A stretch of DNA of 64,000 nt from Limosilactobacillus reuteri (GTDB taxonomy: Bacteria > Bacillota > Bacilli > Lactobacillales > Lactobacillaceae). Below, piece after piece: positions 2,561-46,955 of the stretch. Numbering within the stretch: position 1 is the stretch's first letter; every line of letters starts with the position of its first letter. The translations under genes were made by a program, and so were the position numbers. Where the stretch lies: NCBI RefSeq assembly GCF_020784725.1, contig NZ_JAJGTZ010000033.1, forward strand, positions 1-64,000, given 5' to 3'. The notes beneath the pieces were generated by a model that was given only the letters and a program-made list of their open reading frames with translations, was not told the origin of the DNA and did not search any database.

Positions 2561-5500
2561 ATGGCGAAAAACAATAAAAAACAAGAAGATAAGAGTAAGG
2601 TAAAATTATATAAAACCAAACATGGTTGGTTTAGTTCCTTGACACGTTTCTTTAAAATGTTATCATTTCGAAGAAAACAGGAAGTTAAACCAACAAACTT
2701 TCAGGATTTAGATTCTTTAAAAAATGCTAATGTTTCGGATGCAAAGGATGCCTATAAAAAGGGAGCTGCAACTGTTGCAACATTGCTTGGGATCGGGGCA
2801 ACAGGCGCAGCTAACCCGACAGAAGCACATGCGGCAACGACGACAGTTGACCAAAGCTCTCAAGTAATTGGTTCTGGCTCAACGTCTACTTCGACATCGG
2901 GTAGTACATCGACTAGTCAATCCAATACTTCCACGAGTACATCAACGGCTAGTACTTCAAGCGTCAACTCTGGTTCAACATCTACTAGTACTTCAATATC
3001 AGGGAGTAGTACATCAACTAGCAAATCGAATGGCTCGACCAGTATATCGACTGCTAGTACATCAACCAGTCAGTCAAACGCTTCTATAAGTGAGTCAACA
3101 ACAAGTAATTCTGTTAGCTCTTCAACCGCATCTTCTACAGGTGCACAATCAGTTTCAACGGGAATGAATGAATCGCTTACTAGTGATAATACTTCCCTGT
3201 CTCTGGAGAATGGCATTGAGCCTGTTGCTAATGAAGCTTCTAATAATACTGCATTTTCTGCAAATCAAAGTCTTTCATTACGGACAACGACTGAGAATAT
3301 TACTAATGGGACGATTGCACTATTTAATTCTAGCTTTATTCAAACCACTGAAGAAAATACAGCTGAAGTAAGTAATGGCACTGAATTTCAAAATGCCCTT
3401 AATAATTCAAACATCAGCGTTATTCGGCTAACAGCTGACATTGATTTAGGTCAGTCTGGAATGGGTGATCTCGAAATTCCACCTCGTGATCTTACTATTG
3501 ATGGGGGAAACCATTCTCTTAATTTAGGCAATAACTGTATTTGGCTAAACGCTTCCACGGGTATGAAGACCACGACAACGGTTAAATCCCTTAATCTTTA
3601 TACCGCTAATGAGCGTGGTGGCTTTGCCCTTACTGATTCAGGAGCTGAGACGCTAATCTATGATAATGTCCATGCTACTGGTGGGGCTGCCGTTTTCGCA
3701 GATACTTATTCTTCTAGCGGTTATTTAAAGATCTTTGAAATTCAAGGTCATACAACAATTGATGGAGTCAGCTCATACCAATATAATGGCAATACTTATT
3801 CAACCAGTTCTGCTGATTTTGTTGGGTACAGCACCTTAATTTATGGTGGAAATAACTTGGTTATTGATGATAATGCCAGTTTAGTTATTAATAACAGTAT
3901 GTCTCCATATGACGTTGCAATGTTAGCCAATAATGGAGAGCATGCGGTAATAGTTGGTGAAAATGCGACATTAACAATTAATAATACTTATAGCTATTCC
4001 GGGGGCCAAATTTGGAATAATGTTGGTAATATTGCCCTAACTAATCAAGAAGGTAAGTTTATTGCTGGCGTAAATTCGCATATCAACTTGCACACTAGTG
4101 GAACGAATGTTTACTTTGCTGATGGCTGTGATAATAACACTGTTAACTTTGAACAAGGGACTAATACCACATTTTCTGGTAACCGTAACTTCTACTTTGG
4201 TGGCTCCGATAATACTATTAATATTAATGATCCAGCTCATGTGATTTTAAATACAACAACTGGTACTACTTATTCTTCAAATTCTACAAATGTTACGATA
4301 AACGCTAATGATACTAACGTGATTGTAACAAATGATAGAACAACAATAGAATCGAATTACTTTGCAAATAATCAAAGTACTGTTAATGGTACCAGTTATA
4401 CAATTGGCGCCACTACTGGTGAACAAAATAGTGGAAATGCACCAGTTCAAATGGTAATGGCAGATATTAATCAGAATGGAACCACCAGAGTTGAATATAC
4501 CAGTGGTTCAGAACATTCAGAAAGTATATCTCATTCGGTAAGTGCATCAGAAAGTACTTCTACATCAATTAAAGACAGCATTTCAAATAGTACAAGTCGA
4601 TCAGTATCAACATCGCTCAGTCAAAGTGAGAGTGTATCAACGTCACTTAGCCAGAGTGCCTCAAGCTCGCTTAGTCAGAGTGAGAGCGCCTCGACATCCT
4701 TAAGTCAAAGCGAAAGTGCCTCGACCTCACTCAGTCAGAGCGAGAGTGCATCAACCTCATTGAGTCAAAGTGAAAGCGCATCGACCTCACTTAGCCAAAG
4801 CGAAAGTGCTTCGACATCCTTAAGTCAAAGCGAAAGTGCGTCAACCTCATTGAGTCAGAGTGAGAGTGCTTCGACATCGTTAAGTCAAAGTGAGAGTGCA
4901 TCAACGTCACTGAGTCAGAGCGAAAGTGCCTCAACATCGTTGAGCCAAAGTGAAAGTGCATCAACATCATTGAGTCAAAGTGAAAGTGCCTCAACTTCAC
5001 TCAGCCAGAGCGAAAGTGCGTCAACCTCATTGAGTCAGAGTGAGAGTGCCTCAACCTCATTGAGTCAAAGTGAAAGTGCGTCAACATCATTGAGTCAAAG
5101 TGAAAGTGCGTCAACCTCATTGAGTCAAAGTGAAAGTGCGTCAACCTCATTGAGTCAGAGTGAAAGTGCATCAACTTCACTCAGCCAAAGTGAGAGTGCA
5201 TCAACGTCACTGAGTCAGAGCGAAAGTGCATCAACGTCGTTGAGTCAAAGTGAGAGTGCATCAACATCGTTGAGCCAAAGTGAAAGTGCCTCGACCTCGC
5301 TTAGTCAAAGCGAGAGTGCCTCAACATCGTTGAGCCAAAGTGAAAGTGCGTCAACTTCACTCAGCCAAAGCGAAAGTGCGTCAACTTCACTCAGCCAAAG
5401 CGAAAGTGCGTCAACTTCACTCAGCCAAAGTGAAAGTGCGTCAACTTCACTTAGTCAAAGTGAAAGTGCCTCAACCTCATTGAGTCAGAGTGAAAGTGCC

Positions 5501-8500
5501 TCAACTTCGCTCAGCCAAAGTGAGAGTGCATCAACGTCACTGAGTCAGAGCGAAAGTGCCTCGACATCGTTAAGTCAAAGTGAGAGTGCATCAACGTCAC
5601 TTAGTCAAAGTGAAAGTGCCTCAACATCGTTGAGCCAAAGTGAAAGTGCATCAACTTCACTCAGTCAAAGTGAAAGTACTTCGACATCCTTAAGTCAAAG
5701 CGAAAGTGCCTCGACCTCACTTAGTCAAAGTGAAAGTGCATCAACTTCACTCAGCCAGAGCGAAAGTACTTCGACCTCGTTGAGTCAAAGTGAAAGTGCC
5801 TCGACCTCACTTAGCCAAAGCGAGAGTGCCTCAACTTCACTCAGTCAGAGTGAAAGTGCGTCAACGTCACTTAGCCAAAGTGAGAGTGCATCAACTTCAC
5901 TCAGCCAAAGCGAAAGTGCCTCGACATCACTGAGTCAAAGTGAAAGTGCCTCGACCTCGTTGAGTCAAAGTGAAAGTGCCTCAACGTCACTTAGTCAGAG
6001 TGAAAGTGCTTCGACATCCTTAAGTCAAAGTGAGAGTGCATCAACTTCACTCAGCCAGAGCGAAAGTACTTCGACCTCGTTGAGTCAAAGTGAAAGCGCC
6101 TCGACCTCACTTAGCCAAAGCGAAAGTGCCTCAACCTCATTGAGTCAGAGTGAGAGTGCCTCAACTTCACTCAGTCAAAGTGAAAGTACTTCGACATCAT
6201 TGAGTCAAAGTGAGAGTGCCTCGACCTCGCTTAGCCAAAGTGAAAGTGCTTCGACATCGTTGAGCCAAAGTGAGAGTACTTCGACATCCTTAAGTCAGAG
6301 CGAAAGTACTTCGACATCGTTGAGTCAACGTGAAAGCGCCTCGACCTCACTTAGCCAAAGCGAGAGTGCATCAACATCGTTGAGCCAAAGTGAAAGTGCA
6401 TCAACTTCACTCAGTCAGAGTGAAAGTGCATCAACGTCGCTTAGTCAAAGCGAGAGTGCCTCGACCTCGTTGAGTCAAAGTGAAAGTGCTTCGACCTCGT
6501 TGAGTCAAAGTGAGAGTGCTTCGACATCCTTAAGTCAAAGCGAAAGTGCCTCGACCTCACTCAGTCAGAGCGAGAGTGCCTCAACCTCATTGAGTCAGAG
6601 TGAGAGTGCCTCAACCTCATTGAGTCAGAGTGAGAGTGCCTCAACTTCACTCAGCCAGAGCGAAAGTACTTCGACATCATTGAGCCAAAGTGAAAGTGCC
6701 TCGACATCACTTAGCCAAAGTGAAAGTGCCTCAACCTCATTGAGTCAGAGTGAGAGTGCATCAACATCGTTGAGCCAAAGTGAAAGTGCCTCGACATCAC
6801 TTAGCCAAAGTGAAAGTGCCTCAACTTCACTCAGTCAAAGTGAAAGTACTTCGACATCATTGAGTCAAAGTGAGAGTGCCTCGACCTCGCTTAGCCAAAG
6901 TGAGAGTGCTTCGACATCCTTAAGTCAGAGCGAAAGTACTTCGACCTCGTTGAGTCAAAGTGAAAGCGCCTCGACCTCACTCAGTCAGAGCGAGAGTGCA
7001 TCAACATCGTTGAGCCAAAGTGAAAGTGCATCAACTTCACTCAGTCAGAGTGAAAGTGCATCAACGTCGCTTAGTCAAAGCGAGAGTGCCTCGACCTCAC
7101 TCAGTCAGAGCGAGAGTGCATCAACATCACTTAGCCAAAGTGAAAGTGCATCAACGTCGTTGAGTCAAAGTGAAAGTGCGTCAACGTCACTTAGTCAGAG
7201 TGAAAGTGCATCAACATCACTTAGTCAGAGTGAAAGTGCATCAACATCACTTAGCCAAAGTGAAAGCGCATCAACCTCACTCAGCCAAAGCGAAAGTGCC
7301 TCGACCTCACTGAGTCAGAGTGAGAGTGCCTCGACATCACTTAGCCAAAGTGAAAGTGCGTCAACGTCGTTGAGTCAAAGTGAAAGTGCGTCAACCTCAT
7401 TGAGTCAGAGTGAGAGTGCATCAACCTCGTTGAGCCAAAGTGAAAGTGCCTCAACCTCGTTGAGTCAAAGTGAGAGTGCATCAACTTCACTGAGTCAGAG
7501 TGAAAGTGCATCAACGTCACTCAGCCAAAGTGAGAGTGCTTCTACATCCTTAAGTCAGAGTGAAAGTGCATCAACGTCGCTTAGTCAAAGCGAGAGTGCC
7601 TCGACATCGTTGAGCCAAAGTGAAAGTGCATCAACTTCACTCAGTCAAAGTGAGAGTGCCTCAACCTCATTGAGTCAGAGTGAGAGTGCGTCAACGTCGT
7701 TGAGTCAAAGCGAAAGTGCCTCAACCTCATTGAGTCAGAGTGAGAGTGCATCAACTTCGCTTAGCCAAAGTGAAAGTGCTTCGACATCGTTGAGCCAAAG
7801 TGAGAGTGCTTCGACATCCTTAAGTCAGAGCGAAAGTACTTCGACCTCGTTGAGTCAAAGTGAAAGCGCCTCGACCTCACTCAGTCAGAGTGAAAGTGCA
7901 TCAACGTCACTCAGCCAAAGTGAGAGTGCTTCTACATCCTTAAGTCAGAGTGAAAGTGCATCAACGTCGCTTAGTCAAAGCGAGAGTGCCTCGACCTCGT
8001 TGAGTCAAAGTGAAAGTGCTTCGACCTCGTTGAGTCAAAGTAAGAGTGCTTCGACATCCTTAAGTCAAAGCGAAAGTGCCTCGACCTCACTCAGTCAGAG
8101 CGAGAGTGCCTCAACCTCATTGAGTCAGAGTGAGAGTGCCTCAACTTCACTCAGCCAGAGCGAAAGTACTTCGACATCATTGAGCCAAAGTGAAAGTGCG
8201 TCAACGTCGTTGAGTCAAAGTGAAAGTGCGTCAACCTCATTGAGTCAGAGTGAGAGTGCCTCAACGTCGTTGAGCCAAAGTGAAAGTGCATCAACCTCGT
8301 TGAGTCAAAGTGAGAGTGCATCAACTTCACTGAGTCAGAGTGAAAGCGCATCAACGTCGTTGAGCCAAAGTGAAAGTGCATCAACGTCACTCAGTCAAAG
8401 CGAAAGTGCCTCAACCTCATTGAGTCAGAGTGAAAGTGCATCAACGTCACTCAGCCAAAGTGAGAGTGCTTCTACATCCTTAAGTCAAAGCGAAAGTGCA

Positions 8501-9223
8501 TCAACATCGTTGAGTCAAAGTGAGAGTGCCTCGACATCACTTAGCCAAAGTGAAAGTACTTCAACTTCACTCAGTCAAAGCACCTCGGCTTCATTAAGCA
8601 CCAGCGAATCAGTTTCCGCTTCAATCAGTGGCTCAACTAGTGATTCGGCAGTAAACCCACACCCAGATAACCCGTCTGAGTCAATTAGCGATTCAGTATC
8701 AATGTCGATTAGTACGAGTGAATCGATTTCAGTAAGCTCAAGTACATCCGCTTCGACAAGTGCTAGTCTTTCACCTTCAACAAGTGGAAGCACCTCGATT
8801 AATCCTAGTGAAAGTACTTCAACTTCAATTAGTAATTCTTCATCGATAAATGGATCAGAATCTACTAGCGGTAGTCAATCGCCAGTAACACCATTCCCAG
8901 ATAACAGTGGCTCTGGTTCAATGTCGACGAATGGGTCTGGAAACGGCTCAGCTTCATTGAGTTTGAGTATTACTAACAGTACGAATGCTTCCGGTCTTGA
9001 AAATACAAATGCATCTGTTGCTGATAAGCACACAACTGTTGACTTAACTGCCCAAAACTCAGTTGAAAACAGTAATGTAAATAAGACCAGTCAGCAAAAC
9101 AAGAAGCTTCCACAAACTGGTAATGCTAGTCAAACAACGGCTGAATTGCTTGGCCTGATGTCATTAGAAGCAGTCTTACTCTTGTTAATGGCGAAGAAGA
9201 AAAAGCACAACGAAGATAAATAA
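2561..9223 (+). CDS. Serine-rich repeat glycoprotein adhesin with beta-solenoid binding region
   Basis: This is a 2220-residue cell-wall adhesin. Residues 1-92 form a long KxYKxGKxW-type signal ([12 protein letters not shown], then a hydrophobic stretch ending in AHAA), which directs export through SecA2/SecY2. Residues about 95-210 are a short first Ser-rich region. Residues about 270-640 are a non-repetitive domain rich in N, T and G with solenoid-like rungs ([27 protein letters not shown]), resembling the pectin-lyase-like binding region of L. reuteri SRRPs. Residues about 680-2010 are some 130 decapeptides of the form [11 protein letters not shown] Ser-rich spacer and LPQTG plus a membrane tail end the protein. 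The RBS AGAGGTGG fits the ATG start. The function is adhesion to host mucosa or biofilm matrix; the ligand cannot be read from the sequence. The C-terminus is nearly identical to the SRRP at the window start. Confidence 0.95.
4600..8580 (+). repeat. 30-bp tandem coding repeat, about 132 units
   Basis: The unit is 30 bases encoding [10 protein letters not shown]. The protein is almost invariant (A/T at one position, rare K or R), while synonymous codons vary (GAA/GAG, TCA/TCG, TTG/CTC/CTT/TTA). Codon variants recur in multi-unit blocks: the rare TCTACATCC form occurs near 7530, 7920 and 8460, each within the same neighbours. The block from 6481 recurs at 8011, offset by 1530 bases or 51 units. 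This indicates growth by block duplication. Confidence 0.95.
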
Positions 9224-40527: not shown

Positions 40528-40557
40528 AAAAGAAAGTTGATGATAGGATGTGAGTAT

Positions 40558-40806
40558 ATGGATACTACAAAAGCTAGAATTCAAGGAAATGCAGTGGTAG
40601 TAACAATCCCTAAGTCGCTAGGTGTTGAGCCCGGTACAGAATATCGGTTTAGTAAAGAATCTGATGGTTCATTGAAATTAACACCAACTAAAAAGGTACC
40701 CGAAACCATGGCTGAACTTTTTAAGGGATGGCATGGTAAATACGAAACACCAACTGATTTGCAAGATTGGGATAGCCATGATCCAGAAGGTGAAGAGTTG
40801 TGGTAA
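40558..40806 (+). CDS. mazE: MazE-like antitoxin (AbrB fold)
   Basis: The 82-residue protein begins with a swapped-hairpin AbrB domain (KARIQGNAVVVTIPKSLGVEPG, residues 4-25) that binds DNA. An acidic C-terminal tail (WDSHDPEGEELW) should wrap the toxin. I choose the ATG at 40558 behind GATAGGATG; the upstream ATG at 40537 is inside the leader. It overlaps the toxin gene by seven bases. It should neutralise the toxin and repress the operon. Confidence 0.88.
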   Translation: MDTTKARIQGNAVVVTIPKSLGVEPGTEYRFSKESDGSLKLTPTKKVPETMAELFKGWHGKYETPTDLQDWDSHDPEGEELW

Positions 40807-41156
40807 AGACGAATGAAGCTACTAAACTAAAGCGAGGAAGTATTATTTATATTAACTTTGATCCTTCGGCAGGAGCAGAAATTCAAAAGCGTCGCCCAGC
40901 TGTGGTAATTAGTAATGATATTCTTTCGGAAACTTCACCTTTTGCATGGGTAGTTCCTATTTCGCATGGCACTTTTAATGGTGAAGACTATCCTTTACAC
41001 GTCCAATTAGATAATCGCACACAGACAAATGGAACGGTTTATGTTGAGCAATTAAAATCGTTTGACTTTCATCAACGCAAATGGCAATTTGTAGAAACAA
41101 TACCGGCTGATTTGTTTGCAGAAATCCAGAAAAAGGTTCAATTAGTGATTAAATGA
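40800..41156 (+). CDS. mazF: MazF-like mRNA interferase toxin
   Basis: The 118-residue toxin has the PemK/MazF fold. RGSIIYINFDPSAGAEIQKRRPAVVIS at the N-terminus carries the conserved catalytic Arg region. VVPISHGTF and TNGTVYVEQLKSFDF follow the family pattern. The start is GTG, overlapping mazE, so both are translated together. The enzyme cleaves mRNA at short sequences; the specificity cannot be read. A defective copy of its 3' half lies at 46613-46792. Confidence 0.92.
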   Translation: MVKTNEATKLKRGSIIYINFDPSAGAEIQKRRPAVVISNDILSETSPFAWVVPISHGTFNGEDYPLHVQLDNRTQTNGTVYVEQLKSFDFHQRKWQFVETIPADLFAEIQKKVQLVIK

Positions 41157-41680
41157 GGTTATAAGTTTTGTCATGAAATAGGCATCCCTGTATTCTTTTA
41201 TTGAGGATGCCTTTTAATTTATCCAACAAGCAAACAGGACAGGAAACCGTATTTTTATACTTTAGTGGTAACTGCAAACTAGAACTATTTAAATAACTAC
41301 AAATAATTCAAGCATTTTTTGATCATTTACCGAACTGCGAAGACAAGGGGAGGAAGGTTTTATATATTATGGTCAAAAAAGTTCAAGTAAAATTCAGTAA
41401 ATAATAACAGGGTTATGAATTACTATTTTTGGTAACTCATAACCCCAAGTTTTTCAATACGTACTATTATTAATATCTTCAAGACTTGTTGAGTGTGTAA
41501 GCAGGGCCCAAATTAGTATCTTAAAGTAATAGGAATATGGCCAATATGCTTCCCGTTTGATTAGTAGTTATGATTGACTGCTTATGTTTAATATACAAAT
41601 TGTTTCAAAACATATGTTTGAATTTGAGAGTAATTACGGTAAAATATTATTGTATTTTATTGAAATAAGGTGGAGTTTAA
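41157..41680. other. Gap between mazF and the McrBC-like cassette
   Basis: No gene is present. It holds the mazF terminator, an isolated hairpin GGGTTATGA/TCATAACCC at about 41410-41444, and a promoter for the cassette (TTGAAT 41618-41623, 16 bases, TAAAAT 41640-41645). Confidence 0.55.
41181..41216 (+). terminator. mazF terminator
   Basis: GGCATCC and GGATGCC pair across a 17-base loop, followed by TTTTAATTT. A near-identical copy lies at 46817-46856. Confidence 0.8.
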
Positions 41681-42766
41681 TTGGAATACAGTGATCAAAA
41701 CTTGGAATTTTTAATAAAAAACATTCCAAATAAATATTTTTTAAATATAGTCAAAGAATCGGGTGGCTTATTAGGATCGCCAACGAAAAATTTAAATACT
41801 CAATATAAAAATTATTTGGTGAATAAAGCCTTAAAGAAAAATGTATCATTAAAAGTAAAGAAAGCAATTATTAATGAAATAACAAGGATAGTTAACGATT
41901 CTAATGACAATGATAATGAAAAATCAAAGTTATTTAGGAATTTAAGTAAAAGTTATTTAGAAAATGATGATAAAAAATTTGAAGATTATAAGCAAAAATA
42001 TCTCCAAATAAAAAAGTATGAATTGAAAAATAAAACTACAGTAATTAAAAGTAATATAGAAAAAACAAACTTAGATAAAATAATTGAAAAGCAAAAACTA
42101 AAAATAAAATCTATAAATGAAAAAGAACAAGCAAATTTAGCAACTATTAAAAAATTAAAAAAAGAGGACGTTCTTCTAAAAAAAGATAATCAAAAGCAAA
42201 AACAATTGATAGCTAAGCAGAAAGAACAAATAATAAACTTACAACAAAAGATAAATAAAATTGAGAGTGAACTGAAACTAAAAAGAAGTGCCGATAATGA
42301 CAATAATTTCACGGAAAAAGAAAATAAACAATTAATGTTAAAAATACATAGTTTAAAGGAAAATATAAGTAGTCTAAGAAAAGAAAATTCATTAATAAAA
42401 GCAGATAGAAACAAATTACAGGGGAAATTAACCGAATTAACTTGTAAGAGGTTTTTATTAATTGGGATGCCTATAGGATTTAAATATGGTTCTATAAAAA
42501 TACCAGTGAATACTGAATTTAAAATAGCAGTTTCTAATAGTGTATATAGTATTTTTAATGATGAACAGATTATAGGTTATTCTTCTATTGAAGATATAAT
42601 TCAGCAATTGAATTATCCAATAGATAAATATACGGGAATAATATTTTTTGATAGTGAAGTAACTCGTAAAGATATTATTGAAATAAGTGAAAAAGTTAAT
42701 AAAAGCAAAATTCAATATGTTCACAATATAAATGAGCTTGAAAATGTATTAAATAACACTAAATAG
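41681..42766 (+). CDS. Coiled-coil protein of the McrBC-like cassette
   Basis: The 361-residue protein starts with TTG behind an AAGGTGGAG RBS. Residues 1-110 are a helical N-terminal region (LEFLIKNIPNKYFLNIVKE). Residues about 120-260 form a long coiled coil rich in K, E, Q and L. Residues about 262-361 form a compact alpha/beta domain (RFLLIGMPIGFKYG, GIIFFDSEVTRKDI, ending IQYVHNINELENVL) resembling small Rossmann-like DUF2325-type domains in layout. I cannot name it. It is 17 bases upstream of the McrB-like gene and probably belongs to the same transcript. It may be a sensor or scaffold that recruits the NTPase and nuclease. This role is inference. Confidence 0.7.
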   Translation: MEYSDQNLEFLIKNIPNKYFLNIVKESGGLLGSPTKNLNTQYKNYLVNKALKKNVSLKVKKAIINEITRIVNDSNDNDNEKSKLFRNLSKSYLENDDKKFEDYKQKYLQIKKYELKNKTTVIKSNIEKTNLDKIIEKQKLKIKSINEKEQANLATIKKLKKEDVLLKKDNQKQKQLIAKQKEQIINLQQKINKIESELKLKRSADNDNNFTEKENKQLMLKIHSLKENISSLRKENSLIKADRNKLQGKLTELTCKRFLLIGMPIGFKYGSIKIPVNTEFKIAVSNSVYSIFNDEQIIGYSSIEDIIQQLNYPIDKYTGIIFFDSEVTRKDIIEISEKVNKSKIQYVHNINELENVLNNTK

Positions 42767-42783
42767 CGAAATGAGGAGTAATA

Positions 42784-44685
42784 ATGAATCAATTATTTAT
42801 TGGTGTATGGAACCATAAGGAAAAAGATGGAACTATTTCAGATGAGGGAGGAGTTTTTACTGATAAGAATAAAAACGTAATGTTTAATTTACAAGTCTTG
42901 AATTCACTGGATAAAGAATATCGAGATAAACAAATTCATGTTTTTCCTAATGAGTTAGCCAAAATGGGCTTTCAAGATAATTATTATGATGATGAAGATA
43001 CTAGGAAGTTAACCTTAAGGCATTATTTAAATGATAAAATTTTTATTTTTAAAATTGATGACAGGGAATTTGATAACCCACATGCTTATGATATAAGAAC
43101 TCATATACGAAATAGTGATTTTTCTGTTAATGATACCTTTGAAGAAGTACCTATATTTTTTGATGATTCTAAAAAATTGAGTGATAAGTTATTAATTGGA
43201 GAGACAATTCGTTCTCGTGCTGTTAATCTAATTAGTGATAAAAAAGATAGTATTAGTTCATTTATGATCTCAAAAGATGAAAATTCGAACTTAATATTGT
43301 TTGAAGATGTTACTGCAATTAATACAGATGGTATAGAGAGTGTTCAATACCAAAAGCCAGATGATAATAACCCAATAACAATCCGAAAAATAACTAATAA
43401 TAGTCAAATGGATAATTATTATTATGATAATGGAGATAGTAGTGATATTAGACATAATATTATGTTTATTCCTACTCGATATTTAAAAGGAGATCAACTG
43501 GATAATTTTGCAACACGTTACTCATTACTTACAGAAAGTAAAGACAATATGGTAGAAAATAGCAAGGTTCAAGATCCTGATTTGCTATTTTTAGATCAAT
43601 TTAATAACGTGCTTAGGTCATCAAAATATCAATTATTACTTGATCAAGATGATATTGTAAAACTTCATACCTCAATTAAATCTAATTTATTAACTATACT
43701 TGCTGGACTTAGTGGTACTGGTAAATCAAGGATAATAAGAGCATATGCTGAGGCTTTAGGTATTGATAAAAACTCAGAGAACCGTTTTAAATTTATATCT
43801 GTTAAACCTTCTTGGCAAGATGATTCCGATTTGTTAGGATTTGCTGATACTATCAGTAATAATTATCGACCGAGTGATACGGGGCTTGTTGACACGTTAA
43901 TTGATGCAAAGAAAAATAGTGATCAAATTTATCTAATTGTTTTAGATGAAATGAATTTATCAAGAATTGAATATTATTTTTCACAGTTCTTATCCGTTTT
44001 AGAAAGAGACAGTGATGAAAGATATTTAACTCTGTACAGTGACTATTTAGAAGCACGCTTATATAATAGTTCAACCTATCATGCCAGAATCATGATTCCA
44101 GAAAATGTAAGATTTATTGGAACAATGAATATAGATGAATCTACTTTTGAACTTTCCGATAAGTTGATAGATAGAGCAAATATTATTGAGCTTAATACGA
44201 TTCCATTTTATGAAATTGAAAATATGAAACTAGAAAATTTAAAGCAAAAACAAGAGGAAAAGAACTGGCATAAATTTCCAGTAAGTCTTTTAAATCACTC
44301 AGCTCATGATATCAAATTGAATACAACTCAATTAAACTTTCTATGGGAGCTCCATGAGGCACTGAATCATGAATTACCTAATATTGGAGTTAGCTGGCGA
44401 AATGTTAAATTTATTGAAAAATTTTTGAATAGATTACCTTCAAACTACTTTAAAAAAATTGATGAAGCATTCGATTGGCAAGTGTCTGAACGTATCTTGA
44501 CTAAATTAAGAGGGACAGATACGATGCTTTCGAATTTAATTTCTTATAATGAAAAAGATCATAAATTAAACGGGAAAATCATTGAGATACTTGATAAGTA
44601 TGCAGATTTATCTCAATTTGAAGTAAGTCGTAAAGTGCTTCAAGTTAAAGTAAGAGAATTGGTTGTGAATGGTTATGCAAGATAA
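42784..44685 (+). CDS. McrB-like AAA+ NTPase
   Basis: The 633-residue protein has a target-binding or recruiting N-terminal half (residues 1-280) that I do not recognise, followed by an McrB-type AAA+ domain. Walker A is AGLSGTGKSRII (about residues 308-319), then KPSWQDDSDLLGF, and Walker B YLIVLDEMNLSRIEYYFS (about 380-397). The McrB-specific block GTMNIDESTFELSDKLIDRANII is near 445. In McrBC the NTPase hydrolyses GTP and drives the McrC nuclease. The nuclease-like partner gene overlaps by 17 bases. The RBS is GAGGAG. The N-terminal half determines what is recognised, so the target could be modified DNA or RNA. Confidence 0.85.
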   Translation: MNQLFIGVWNHKEKDGTISDEGGVFTDKNKNVMFNLQVLNSLDKEYRDKQIHVFPNELAKMGFQDNYYDDEDTRKLTLRHYLNDKIFIFKIDDREFDNPHAYDIRTHIRNSDFSVNDTFEEVPIFFDDSKKLSDKLLIGETIRSRAVNLISDKKDSISSFMISKDENSNLILFEDVTAINTDGIESVQYQKPDDNNPITIRKITNNSQMDNYYYDNGDSSDIRHNIMFIPTRYLKGDQLDNFATRYSLLTESKDNMVENSKVQDPDLLFLDQFNNVLRSSKYQLLLDQDDIVKLHTSIKSNLLTILAGLSGTGKSRIIRAYAEALGIDKNSENRFKFISVKPSWQDDSDLLGFADTISNNYRPSDTGLVDTLIDAKKNSDQIYLIVLDEMNLSRIEYYFSQFLSVLERDSDERYLTLYSDYLEARLYNSSTYHARIMIPENVRFIGTMNIDESTFELSDKLIDRANIIELNTIPFYEIENMKLENLKQKQEEKNWHKFPVSLLNHSAHDIKLNTTQLNFLWELHEALNHELPNIGVSWRNVKFIEKFLNRLPSNYFKKIDEAFDWQVSERILTKLRGTDTMLSNLISYNEKDHKLNGKIIEILDKYADLSQFEVSRKVLQVKVRELVVNGYAR

Positions 44686-46399
44686 TATTTTTTTGATAAA
44701 TAAAAGTTATAAAAGAAAAATATTTGAGTTTAGCATTGATGAACTTAATAATAATTTTCAAGAAATATTTGAAAATTCAGAATGGGAGTTAATATTTCAT
44801 GCACCTGAAGGTAGTAAATTATATATGGATGGACTCGATCTTATCCACGATGAACGTATCGTGAAAGATGCTAATGGAATATATATTACACCAAGTGATG
44901 ATCCTTATTATATCTATAACCATAACGAAAATGAGAATAAATATTTGCCAGGTCTTTATCGATTAAAATTAGTGAATCAATCAACCGTAAAATATAGTTG
45001 GCTTAAAATAAAGCCTAAATTTTTAACGGAAAATTTATTAGAAGTTATGAAGCAAGATGTTGAAAATACAGTCAAAGGATTAGCACGTTCATTCCATGCA
45101 AATACTAATGGAAGCCTTTCAAATTATTCTTCTTTTTTAACATTTGAGGAGATTGAAGCTTTAACTATATTAAATAATAGTTATAAAGATTTTAATTTAA
45201 ATACTTACTTTTTATCTCATTCACCAAGGGTAAGAGCTGGATCATATTATCATTGGACTAGAAATAAGAAAAGGAATTTAGATAACAAATCGATAAAAAA
45301 AATGAGTATTAAAAAGTATGATAAAGAATTATACCTTAAAGATTTTCATGCTACAGTTGATATTTCAGAAAATAGAGTTTTGAAAAGATTGCTGTTAGAA
45401 ATATTACAAGTGATAATGAATGTCAAAAAGAGTATAGGGAAAATTCCTAAAAATTTGATGAGTTCAGATCTAAAAAAAGATTTTACATTACTTCAAAAAT
45501 ATTCATCTAAGTTAAATTATTTATTAAAGGAAGGATGGCTTCGGAAAGTTCAAATAGTTCAAAAAGAAAGGGGAATTAGTAATGCATATTTAGATTATCG
45601 ATATATATTTTTTAAGGACTTGAATTGGAAACTAAAGCATATTTCTAATTTTCAACCGCAATTTAGCAGACAATATCAGTATTACTGGCATCGAACAGAT
45701 CTTTTATATGAAATCTGGGGATATATTAAAGTTATTGAAGCTCTTAAGAGTCTTGGATTTACTCCAGTAAAAGGATGGATTTTTGATAATGTTGATTTGG
45801 ATTTTCAAGAACTTAAGCCTGGAACTTGTGTTGAAATGAAAACCAATGGTATGTATAAGCATTTTATGTACCTAAAAATCAAGTATGATGATGAAGTTCT
45901 TCCTGAAGAAGAGGAGAAAGTTACGCTTTCAAATCCACTATGGCATAGTAGCCCTCATAATAGACCCGATATTAGAATTGAAATCTATGATAAAAACATG
46001 ATTTTTCAATCTACAATTATCTTGGATACTAAATATAGACGATTAAAGAATATGAATAATTTTGGGAAAGCTGGAATAGTAGAGCAACTCAATGCATACC
46101 GCTACCAACTTTTAAGCCCTTATCCTTTTAGGGCTGATAGTTACCAAAAATATAATTTATTTCATAGAAAAAATGAAGATCATCAAGTTATAGATGTAGC
46201 TGCTTTATATCCAGGAGAACTTAATGATCAAGAAGAGGTTCTGAGTGAATTAAAAACTAAAAGTACAAAATCTATTGTATTAAATCCAAGGTTTCCTAAT
46301 AACAGTTTATTGAAGAAATTTCTAAAAGAAAGTTTTAATCAGCAAGAAGAAACTTTTGAACAATTTGAAAAATGGGATGAATTCCTTAAAGATTTTTAA
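44669..46399 (+). CDS. McrC-like DUF2357 / PD-(D/E)xK nuclease
   Basis: The 576-residue protein has a DUF2357-type N-terminal and central region (residues 1-400, SPRVRAGSYYHWTRN, TVDISENRVLKRLLLEIL) and a C-terminal nuclease domain. The PD-(D/E)xK active site is readable as RPDIRIEIYD followed by IILDTKYRR (near residue 455), with the Asp and the Asp-Lys pair in place. AGIVEQLNAYRYQL is the following helix. It is the effector of the cassette, stimulated by the McrB-like NTPase. It starts inside the end of that gene, so the two are co-translated. Confidence 0.85.
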   Translation: MVMQDNIFLINKSYKRKIFEFSIDELNNNFQEIFENSEWELIFHAPEGSKLYMDGLDLIHDERIVKDANGIYITPSDDPYYIYNHNENENKYLPGLYRLKLVNQSTVKYSWLKIKPKFLTENLLEVMKQDVENTVKGLARSFHANTNGSLSNYSSFLTFEEIEALTILNNSYKDFNLNTYFLSHSPRVRAGSYYHWTRNKKRNLDNKSIKKMSIKKYDKELYLKDFHATVDISENRVLKRLLLEILQVIMNVKKSIGKIPKNLMSSDLKKDFTLLQKYSSKLNYLLKEGWLRKVQIVQKERGISNAYLDYRYIFFKDLNWKLKHISNFQPQFSRQYQYYWHRTDLLYEIWGYIKVIEALKSLGFTPVKGWIFDNVDLDFQELKPGTCVEMKTNGMYKHFMYLKIKYDDEVLPEEEEKVTLSNPLWHSSPHNRPDIRIEIYDKNMIFQSTIILDTKYRRLKNMNNFGKAGIVEQLNAYRYQLLSPYPFRADSYQKYNLFHRKNEDHQVIDVAALYPGELNDQEEVLSELKTKSTKSIVLNPRFPNNSLLKKFLKESFNQQEETFEQFEKWDEFLKDF

Positions 46400-46612
46400 T
46401 TTGATGTCAATAATTAAATAAGTTCTAGATGTAAGTAGGTAATAACAGTATGGATTGAAAAATAGAAGCATGAGTTACCTAAAATGGTATTTAGTAATTC
46501 TATTATTATGGTTTTACAATATTTGGTATTAATATAGAAATATTACTTGCTATACCAATATCAGCTATTGTAGAGTCCAGAAAGTATGAACGGTGCCCAT
46601 TTGTATGGCCTT

Positions 46613-46856
46613 AAGGGTGAAGACTATCCTTTACACGTTCAATTAGATAATCGCACATAGACAAATGGAACAGTTTATGTTGAACAATTAAAGGCATTTG
46701 ACTTTCATCAACGCAAATGGCAATTTGTAGAAACAATGCCGGCTGATTTGTTTGAAGAAATCCAGAAAAAGGTTCAATTAGTGATTAAATGAGGTTATAA
46801 GTTTTGTCATGAAACAGGCATCCCCGTATTCTTCTAGAGTGAGGATGCCTTTTAAT
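46613..46856 (+). pseudogene. mazF 3' fragment with terminator (second copy)
   Basis: This stretch closely matches 40980-41216, covering the last 59 codons of mazF and its terminator. It lacks the first half of the gene and carries a TAG in place of CAG (HIDKW-type region, codon for Gln in NRTQTNG). It is therefore a non-functional remnant. Together with the intact mazF it flanks the 5.4-kb cassette as a direct repeat. Confidence 0.9.
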
Positions 46857-46955
46857 TTATTCAATTTTTTTGCACAAATTATTGAATTAAAACAGCTAAG
46901 ATCATTTAGCCATCATTTCTAGAATTTGGTACAATAAAATGGCTTTAAAACTTAA

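Follow-up and report, generated by a model that had tools for sequence, protein, structure and literature searches.

In the 64,000-nucleotide stretch of Limosilactobacillus reuteri DNA analysed here (positions 1 to 64,000 of contig NZ_JAJGTZ010000033.1, RefSeq assembly GCF_020784725.1; henceforth, the window), we identified three tightly spaced genes that, judged from sequence features, very probably (at roughly 85%) constitute an intact Type I-B CoCoNuT operon, cnuA-cnuB-cnuC. Type I-B CoCoNuTs come mainly from Bacillota (Bell et al. 2024, eLife 13:RP94800, PMC11090510). In that description, CnuA is a separate coiled-coil protein with a helical N-terminal domain, described as PYD/CARD-like, and a receiver-like C-terminal domain; CnuB, the McrB homologue, has an NxD motif, no coiled coil, an N-terminal CSD and often a YTH-like domain; and CnuC, the McrC homologue, combines an N-terminal Ig-like domain with DUF2357 and a PD-(D/E)xK nuclease. 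An initial annotation made from the letters alone had proposed a CoCoNuT-type McrBC relative of incompletely described architecture. The gene order, the domains, the NxD motif and the PD-(D/E)xK site bear out the kinship. The architecture is no longer to be called incompletely described, the exact trio having been described as Type I-B CoCoNuT (PMC11090510): by its features, the trio is an instance of a described subtype, not a new kind of system.

The components of the locus are the following.

41681–42766, forward strand: cnuA-like gene 1, an open reading frame (ORF) of 361 amino acids with a TTG start
42767–42783, forward strand: 17-base gap from cnuA to cnuB, with a Shine-Dalgarno-like GAGGAG (found by eye) before the cnuB ATG
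42784–44685, forward strand: cnuB-like gene 2, an ORF of 633 amino acids
44669–44685, forward strand: 17-base overlap of cnuB and cnuC, the cnuC ATG lying across the AAT-GGT codons of cnuB
44669–46399, forward strand: cnuC-like gene 3, an ORF of 576 amino acids

The positions and spacing of the three ORFs on their shared strand are thus as first reported, and the arrangement goes beyond chance, since the identical gene order recurs across Bacillota. Two details of that report do not hold: a single promoter ahead of the trio is not established, as sigma-70-like matches within 41150–46900 are at shuffle level (39 observed, shuffled mean 38.5), and the supposedly small size is not distinctive, the proteins of relatives being similar in length.

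The GTPase and Nuclease Genes

A cnuB profile retrieved 501 relatives from genome contigs, and all locus counts below use the best 80 of these 501; a single-sequence search of the contigs with gene 2 gave no match, so that the profile was needed. Gene 2 matches Pfam family AAA_5 (E 6.5e-5; 23.4 bits, cutoff 22) and its AAA+ domain carries a Walker A motif (GLSGTGKS, with lysine K314), a Walker B motif (LDE) and the NxD motif N449-I-D451-E. NxD, with three-residue spacing and no insertion, is present in all 76 rows of a CnuB alignment that comprises the window and 75 of the 76 complete ORFs of relatives (all but L078); the next residue is E in 73 rows and D in three. According to Bell et al., no NxD McrB GTPase had been characterised (PMC11090510).

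The AlphaFold2 model of gene 2 (mean pLDDT 87.9) consists of a beta-rich N-terminal region (about residues 1–235) and the AAA+ domain, without a long helix ahead of the latter, and no residue scores as coiled coil. McrB structures account for three of seven matches of the gene 2 profile to Protein Data Bank (PDB) sequences (best E 1.5e-4), the others being P-loops of UvrA and RsgA. In a Foldseek search with the model, all of the 50 matches listed are AAA+ proteins: 6hz4, which we take to be the E. coli McrBC structure, ranks second (E 8.8e-8), T. gammatolerans McrB (6ut3/6ut5) is also matched, and many dynein and MCM AAA+ modules appear at E-values similar to those of McrB. Gene 2 has 12 Pfam matches at an E-value of 1 or below, none of them to DUF3578 (ADAM), and its N-terminal piece has no Pfam match at all at E up to 0.1.

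Gene 3 matches DUF2357 (E 1.9e-6) and PDDEXK_7 (E 9.5e-6), both above the Pfam cutoff. Its nuclease site, already annotated as intact, comprises P433-D434, D453-T-K455 and Q473. Throughout the CnuC alignment (60 of the 74 CnuC ORFs of relatives, plus the window), P-D and K are kept in all 61 rows and position 453 is D in 40 and E in 21; of the 61 members, 50 have a Pfam match to DUF2357 and 53 to PDDEXK_7.

The short overlap between the two genes is itself conserved. A start codon (75 ATG, one GTG) that opens an ORF of at least 250 codons stands at exactly the 17-base overlap in 76 of 81 loci (the 80 relatives and the window, which are related sequences and not independent events); the exceptions are L014, L020, L066, L084 and L085, of which L066 is truncated at a contig end. 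The cnuB codon pair underneath the cnuC ATG specifies Tyr-Gly (39), Asn-Gly (28) or His-Gly (10), and the first codon ends in T in 76 of these 77 pairs and in C in one. Elsewhere in the same cnuB genes, 74.7% of Tyr, Asn and His codons end in T, a rate that predicts some 56 T endings in 77 codons. Since ATGG is preserved although the encoded amino acid differs between loci, we see selection on the cnuC start codon, a pattern in the sequences that suggests translational coupling of the two genes.

CnuA: Architecture and Kinship

No Pfam family reaches its cutoff against gene 1. A COILS-type score, controlled with shuffled sequences, places a coiled coil at residues 135–257. The AlphaFold2 model (mean pLDDT 86; pTM 0.49; built on an input alignment low in identity) has three parts: an N-terminal domain (5–94) with helices at 5–14, 17–26, 40–50, 56–73 and 78–94, of low confidence over 71–100; a coiled coil (97–254) of two helices, 97–204 and 211–254, with a break near 205–210; and a C-terminal domain (256–359) of five strands alternating with helices, with pLDDT of 84–97 in ten-residue blocks. 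Both the coiled coil and the C-terminal alpha/beta domain announced by the initial annotation are present; the latter, there said to be of no recognised kind, corresponds in position to the domain of Type I-B CnuA that is called receiver-like (PMC11090510). The modelled five-strand alternating layout is compatible with a receiver (REC) domain. Foldseek with the model returned no significant match to either a receiver or a PYD/CARD-like fold.

We compared the C-terminal domain with the usual receiver phospho-site residues. The acidic pair after strand 1 is absent, and the residue after strand 4 is D, N and N in three congeners; because of these two features, phospho-regulation through the usual site looks unlikely in CnuA of the window's clade.

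CnuA is also the fastest diverging of the three proteins on sequence comparison: its conservation falls below that of CnuB in all 124 pairs compared and below that of CnuC in 118 of them (pairs whose CnuB proteins are 50–99% identical, again related sequences rather than independent events). The CnuA set comprised the window and the 66 upstream ORFs that passed a filter on gap, coiled coil and completeness. In a MAFFT alignment, gene 1 is only 10–22% identical to other proteins in the CnuA position. A sequence search of 301 family genomes with gene 1 found only the window and one further genome of the genus (G077), and gene 1 searched alone in plasmids and phages found nothing.

Profile-profile comparison reaches further. 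The C-terminal domain of the window's genus links to those of other lactic acid bacteria at 78% (E 1.8e-5, over 94 columns), to Paenibacillaceae at 50% and to all others at 41%, with little towards L013/L017 (3.6%), Lachnospiraceae (2.8%) and Bacillaceae (0.3%). The N-terminal domain links to L013/L017 at 72% (E 3.4e-5) and to lactic acid bacteria at 25%, with little towards all others (5.9%), Bacillaceae (1.2%), Paenibacillaceae (0.6%) and Lachnospiraceae (0.4%). Twelve domain-mismatched control pairs all stay at or below 0.9%. The lactic-acid-bacterial domains lead on to Bacillaceae (73% for the C-terminal, 71% for the N-terminal domain) and Bacillaceae to Paenibacillaceae (99%). Gene 1 is thus highly diverged, its sequence tie to other CnuA proteins being seen by profile-profile comparison only, and its kinship to CnuA is supported to a moderate degree by these links taken together with position and layout.

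Relatives of the Operon

A coiled-coil gene adjoins the McrB gene in most of the 80 relatives, as expected of the dedicated partner that had been proposed. Upstream of cnuB, an ORF of at least 100 amino acids on the same strand occurs in 74 of 80, in 70 of them within −150 to +30 nt. At least 70 coiled-coil residues are found in 65 of these 74 ORFs, as compared to 9 of 74 after shuffling once, and in two CnuB and three CnuC proteins of the same loci. Among the six relatives without an upstream ORF, cnuB lies at or near a contig end in four (L029, L063, L071, L074), one is the fusion treated below (L078) and one is a true lack (L015). Nine upstream ORFs have fewer than 70 coiled-coil residues: L033 (65) and L090 (48), two that are cut by a contig end (L043, L048), one interrupted by an assembly gap (L089), three genes of another kind (L020, L077, L084) and that of L083, where the coiled coil lies inside CnuB (133–231) and no CnuA N-terminal domain is detectable. 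In L020, a close relative, a helicase-like ORF (by eye) and ORFs of 236 and 221 amino acids stand directly upstream of cnuB (L020:2287–5179).

L078, from Metalysinibacillus, is probably a fusion of CnuA and CnuB, to judge from its sequence. Ahead of a complete CnuB, which starts near residue 256, its 870-amino-acid ORF (4387–6999) has some 160 additional N-terminal residues and a coiled coil (163–250), leaving no room for the CnuA alpha/beta C-terminal domain. By hhalign, its N-terminal part moderately matches the CnuA N-terminal domains of the nearest group, at 48% (E 1.9e-4, 116 columns), while controls with ordinary CnuB starts remain at or below 0.5%; the N-terminal domain hidden Markov model (HMM) does not pick L078 out. 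We give little weight to a phmmer match to the CnuA of L049 (E 1.8e-4, for a single query out of 73), since ordinary CnuB proteins (L067, L068, L057) match as well or nearly so. If real, the fusion supports contact between CnuA and CnuB.

In a GTPase tree, the window falls in an 89-row clade together with all 80 relatives (Shimodaira–Hasegawa-like approximate likelihood ratio test 99, quick search), ten other rows standing apart, and its nearest named relatives are Lactobacillaceae. The same three-gene order occurs on plasmids of Lactococcus, Companilactobacillus, Lactiplantibacillus, Pontibacillus and Priestia. There, the gene 1 relative is annotated as a hypothetical protein in all five, gene 2 as an AAA ATPase in four and gene 3 as a nuclease or DUF2357 protein in four, the rest being hypothetical; two plasmid copies adjoin an Abi-annotated gene or a type I restriction gene. 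The cnuB GTPase domain in L027, a contig labelled as a Methanobrevibacter metagenome-assembled genome, is almost identical to that of Lactococcus plasmid p275A, and the label is probably due to contamination.

Presence is patchy. The gene 2 profile matches 39 of 397 family genomes at E 0.001, 19 of them at 1e-30 or better and the other 20 weakly. Within the genus, gene 2 occurs in four of 50 genomes: the window's own, G077 with the full trio, G322 with the trio but with residues 1–28 of gene 2 in another frame, and G045. In G045 (L104), gene 2 is split by transposase-like ORFs, which read as IS3-type (IS, insertion sequence), and gene 3 lies in two ORFs; a search of 11 kb there did not reveal gene 1.

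Genomic Setting

On one side of the cassette is an intact toxin-antitoxin-like pair (40537–41156), presumably mazEF with mazF as the toxin gene, and on the other a broken 3′ part of that toxin gene. The toxin 3′ sequence forms a direct repeat flanking the cassette (40975–41226 and 46611–46864; 237 of 254 columns identical, about 93–94%), which from its sequence looks like an insertion or duplication scar. The damaged trio of G045 occupies the same chromosomal neighbourhood, with flanks 88–95% identical and the trio itself only about 76%. Because of the flanking repeat and this damaged copy, a mobile or fast-turning locus fits the data.

Near both ends of the cassette, there is an inverted repeat (41401–41472 and 46440–46509; 75% over 72 columns), whose left copy is itself a hairpin with one other weak copy in the genome (75%). 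Next to the right copy, 46510–46564 is a dispersed repeat of about 55 bp with three further genome copies (86–89%). Elsewhere in the window, 2561–9223 is an ORF of 2220 amino acids.

We also scanned the ORFs flanking the relatives (133 of the 141 nearest ORFs, eight having been dropped). PADLOC matches are scattered, with at most two members per family (62 families, 25 of them listed; no control set).

Alternative Readings

Several observations weigh against the assignment to Type I-B. It is made by features, and not by placement among the labelled sequences of Bell et al.; the published references are TKH01449.1 (CnuA), GED20858.1 (CnuB) and GED20857.1 (PMC11090510). HMMs built from the 70 other CnuA C-terminal domains and 70 N-terminal domains missed the window and G077, even at E 1000 for the C-terminal domain, with 1062 decoys searched, and at E up to 100 for the N-terminal domain, while they did find L089, a true relative among the decoys (E 6.1e-15 and 3.1e-26, respectively). 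Foldseek with the gene 1 model gave nothing at E 0.001 or better, the best match (0.068) being a dihydrofolate reductase. In CnuB, neither CSD nor YTH was matched in Pfam (25 N-terminal pieces) or among PDB sequences, and the CnuC profile matched no McrC structure among PDB sequences. CnuA is absent from four of the 80 relatives (L015, L020, L077, L084), two of which (L015, L020) belong to the window's own eight-row tree clade. Finally, the nearest neighbours of the relatives are not clearly defence genes.

Of the other readings, a conventional DNA-cutting McrBC, that is, Type IV restriction, accompanied by a structural gene with no specific role survives best, though we hold it to be unlikely. 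The relatives without CnuA and the retention of the PD-(D/E)xK residues in all 61 CnuC rows agree with it; an NxD rather than an NxxD motif, the failure to find a recognised DNA-reading domain in CnuB, and the presence of CnuA in most relatives, including its probable fusion to CnuB in L078, speak against it.

We consider it less probable still that the trio serves not in anti-phage defence but in a stress response, the role that Bell et al. propose for Pseudo-Type I-B (PMC11090510). Among the 25 families listed, the nearest flanking ORFs do show mostly metabolic Pfam families, with few PADLOC matches among the 133 ORFs. Patchy presence (the 19 of 397 family genomes at 1e-30 or better), carriage on plasmids, twice beside an Abi-annotated or type I restriction gene, an IS-damaged copy in a close relative and the fast divergence of CnuA are, however, more easily reconciled with defence.

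That the trio is a new McrBC subtype, its gene 1 resembling CnuA in layout without being homologous, is very improbable: the leave-out HMMs, the lack of a significant Foldseek match and the 10–22% identity would allow it, but the profile-profile links (78% and 72%, against at most 0.9% in mismatched controls), the onward links from lactic acid bacteria to Bacillaceae and Paenibacillaceae, and the position of the window's CnuB inside the clade of these operons oppose it.

Possible Mechanism and Significance

Taking the trio as a Type I-B CoCoNuT, an anti-phage defence role is plausible. For the workings of such a system, we follow the analogy with E. coli McrBC drawn from the introduction of Bell et al. 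(PMC11090510); beyond the genes, motifs, models and conservation described above, we infer complex formation, signal, substrate and outcome. CnuB would form a GTP-hydrolysing AAA+ hexamer, as in McrBC and the CoCoNuT paper. CnuC would dock on this ring through DUF2357, stimulate hydrolysis and carry the cutting PD-(D/E)xK domain. The coiled coil of CnuA would take the place of the coiled coil that, in other Type I subtypes, is part of CnuB itself. CnuA would extend from the ring as a sensor or scaffold through which an infection signal is passed to the ring, and activation could lead to nucleic-acid cleavage, by which the phage is restricted or the cell stopped. We offer this sensor or scaffold role tentatively, giving it somewhat less than an even chance. 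RNA as the target is a prediction; DNA cleavage may be possible too, because the PD-(D/E)xK site is intact. A further idea strikes us as doubtful: that CnuA is a fast-evolving, interchangeable sensor arm of the McrB ring, its coiled coil, which other CoCoNuTs carry within CnuB, having become a gene of its own in order to diversify against phage signals, that its C-terminal domain is a degenerate Rossmann-like binding domain and no phospho-receiver, and that the fixed 17-base overlap keeps ring and nuclease at a set ratio.

The window adds an undamaged example, from a lactic acid bacterium, of this predicted class of defence systems, and the relatives on lactococcal and lactobacillus plasmids could be transferred and tested in laboratories. 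In the later literature within reach, we saw no experimental test of Type I-B, which is no proof that there is none, most subscription journals lying beyond that reach. The divergence of CnuA, the probable fusion, the near-invariant overlap and the lack of a visible phospho-site give the hitherto vague predictions about CnuA a testable form.

Comparison with Known Systems

The PADLOC candidate system PDC-M26 shares one component with the trio, gene 2 matching PDC-M26A (E 2.9e-41); the other two genes match none of the PDC-M26 models. We rejected PDC-M26 as a name for the system: PDC-M26B (857 positions) is unmatched in the window's genome, and control genomes gave no match either.

E. coli K-12 McrBC likewise pairs an AAA+ GTPase with a DUF2357-PD-DxK partner, and the AAA+ fold of gene 2 matches 6hz4, presumably the E. 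coli structure. It differs in having NxxD where the window has NxD; moreover, DUF3578 is missing from the Pfam matches of gene 2, and the window adds a coiled-coil gene.

Pseudo-Type I-B CoCoNuTs have a close CnuB/CnuC pair but are defined by the loss of CnuA (PMC11090510), whereas in the window CnuA is present and adjacent (41681–42766).

Type I-B CoCoNuTs agree in layout: a separate gene for a helical, coiled-coil and alpha/beta protein, followed by an NxD McrB without coiled coil and a DUF2357-PD-(D/E)xK protein, in Bacillota. Nothing decisive sets the trio apart from them; its CnuA, if a receiver, seems to be without the usual phospho-site. This last feature, the conserved start codon in the overlap, the divergence of CnuA and the probable fusion in L078 are the small additions that the present locus and its relatives make to the published description of the subtype.

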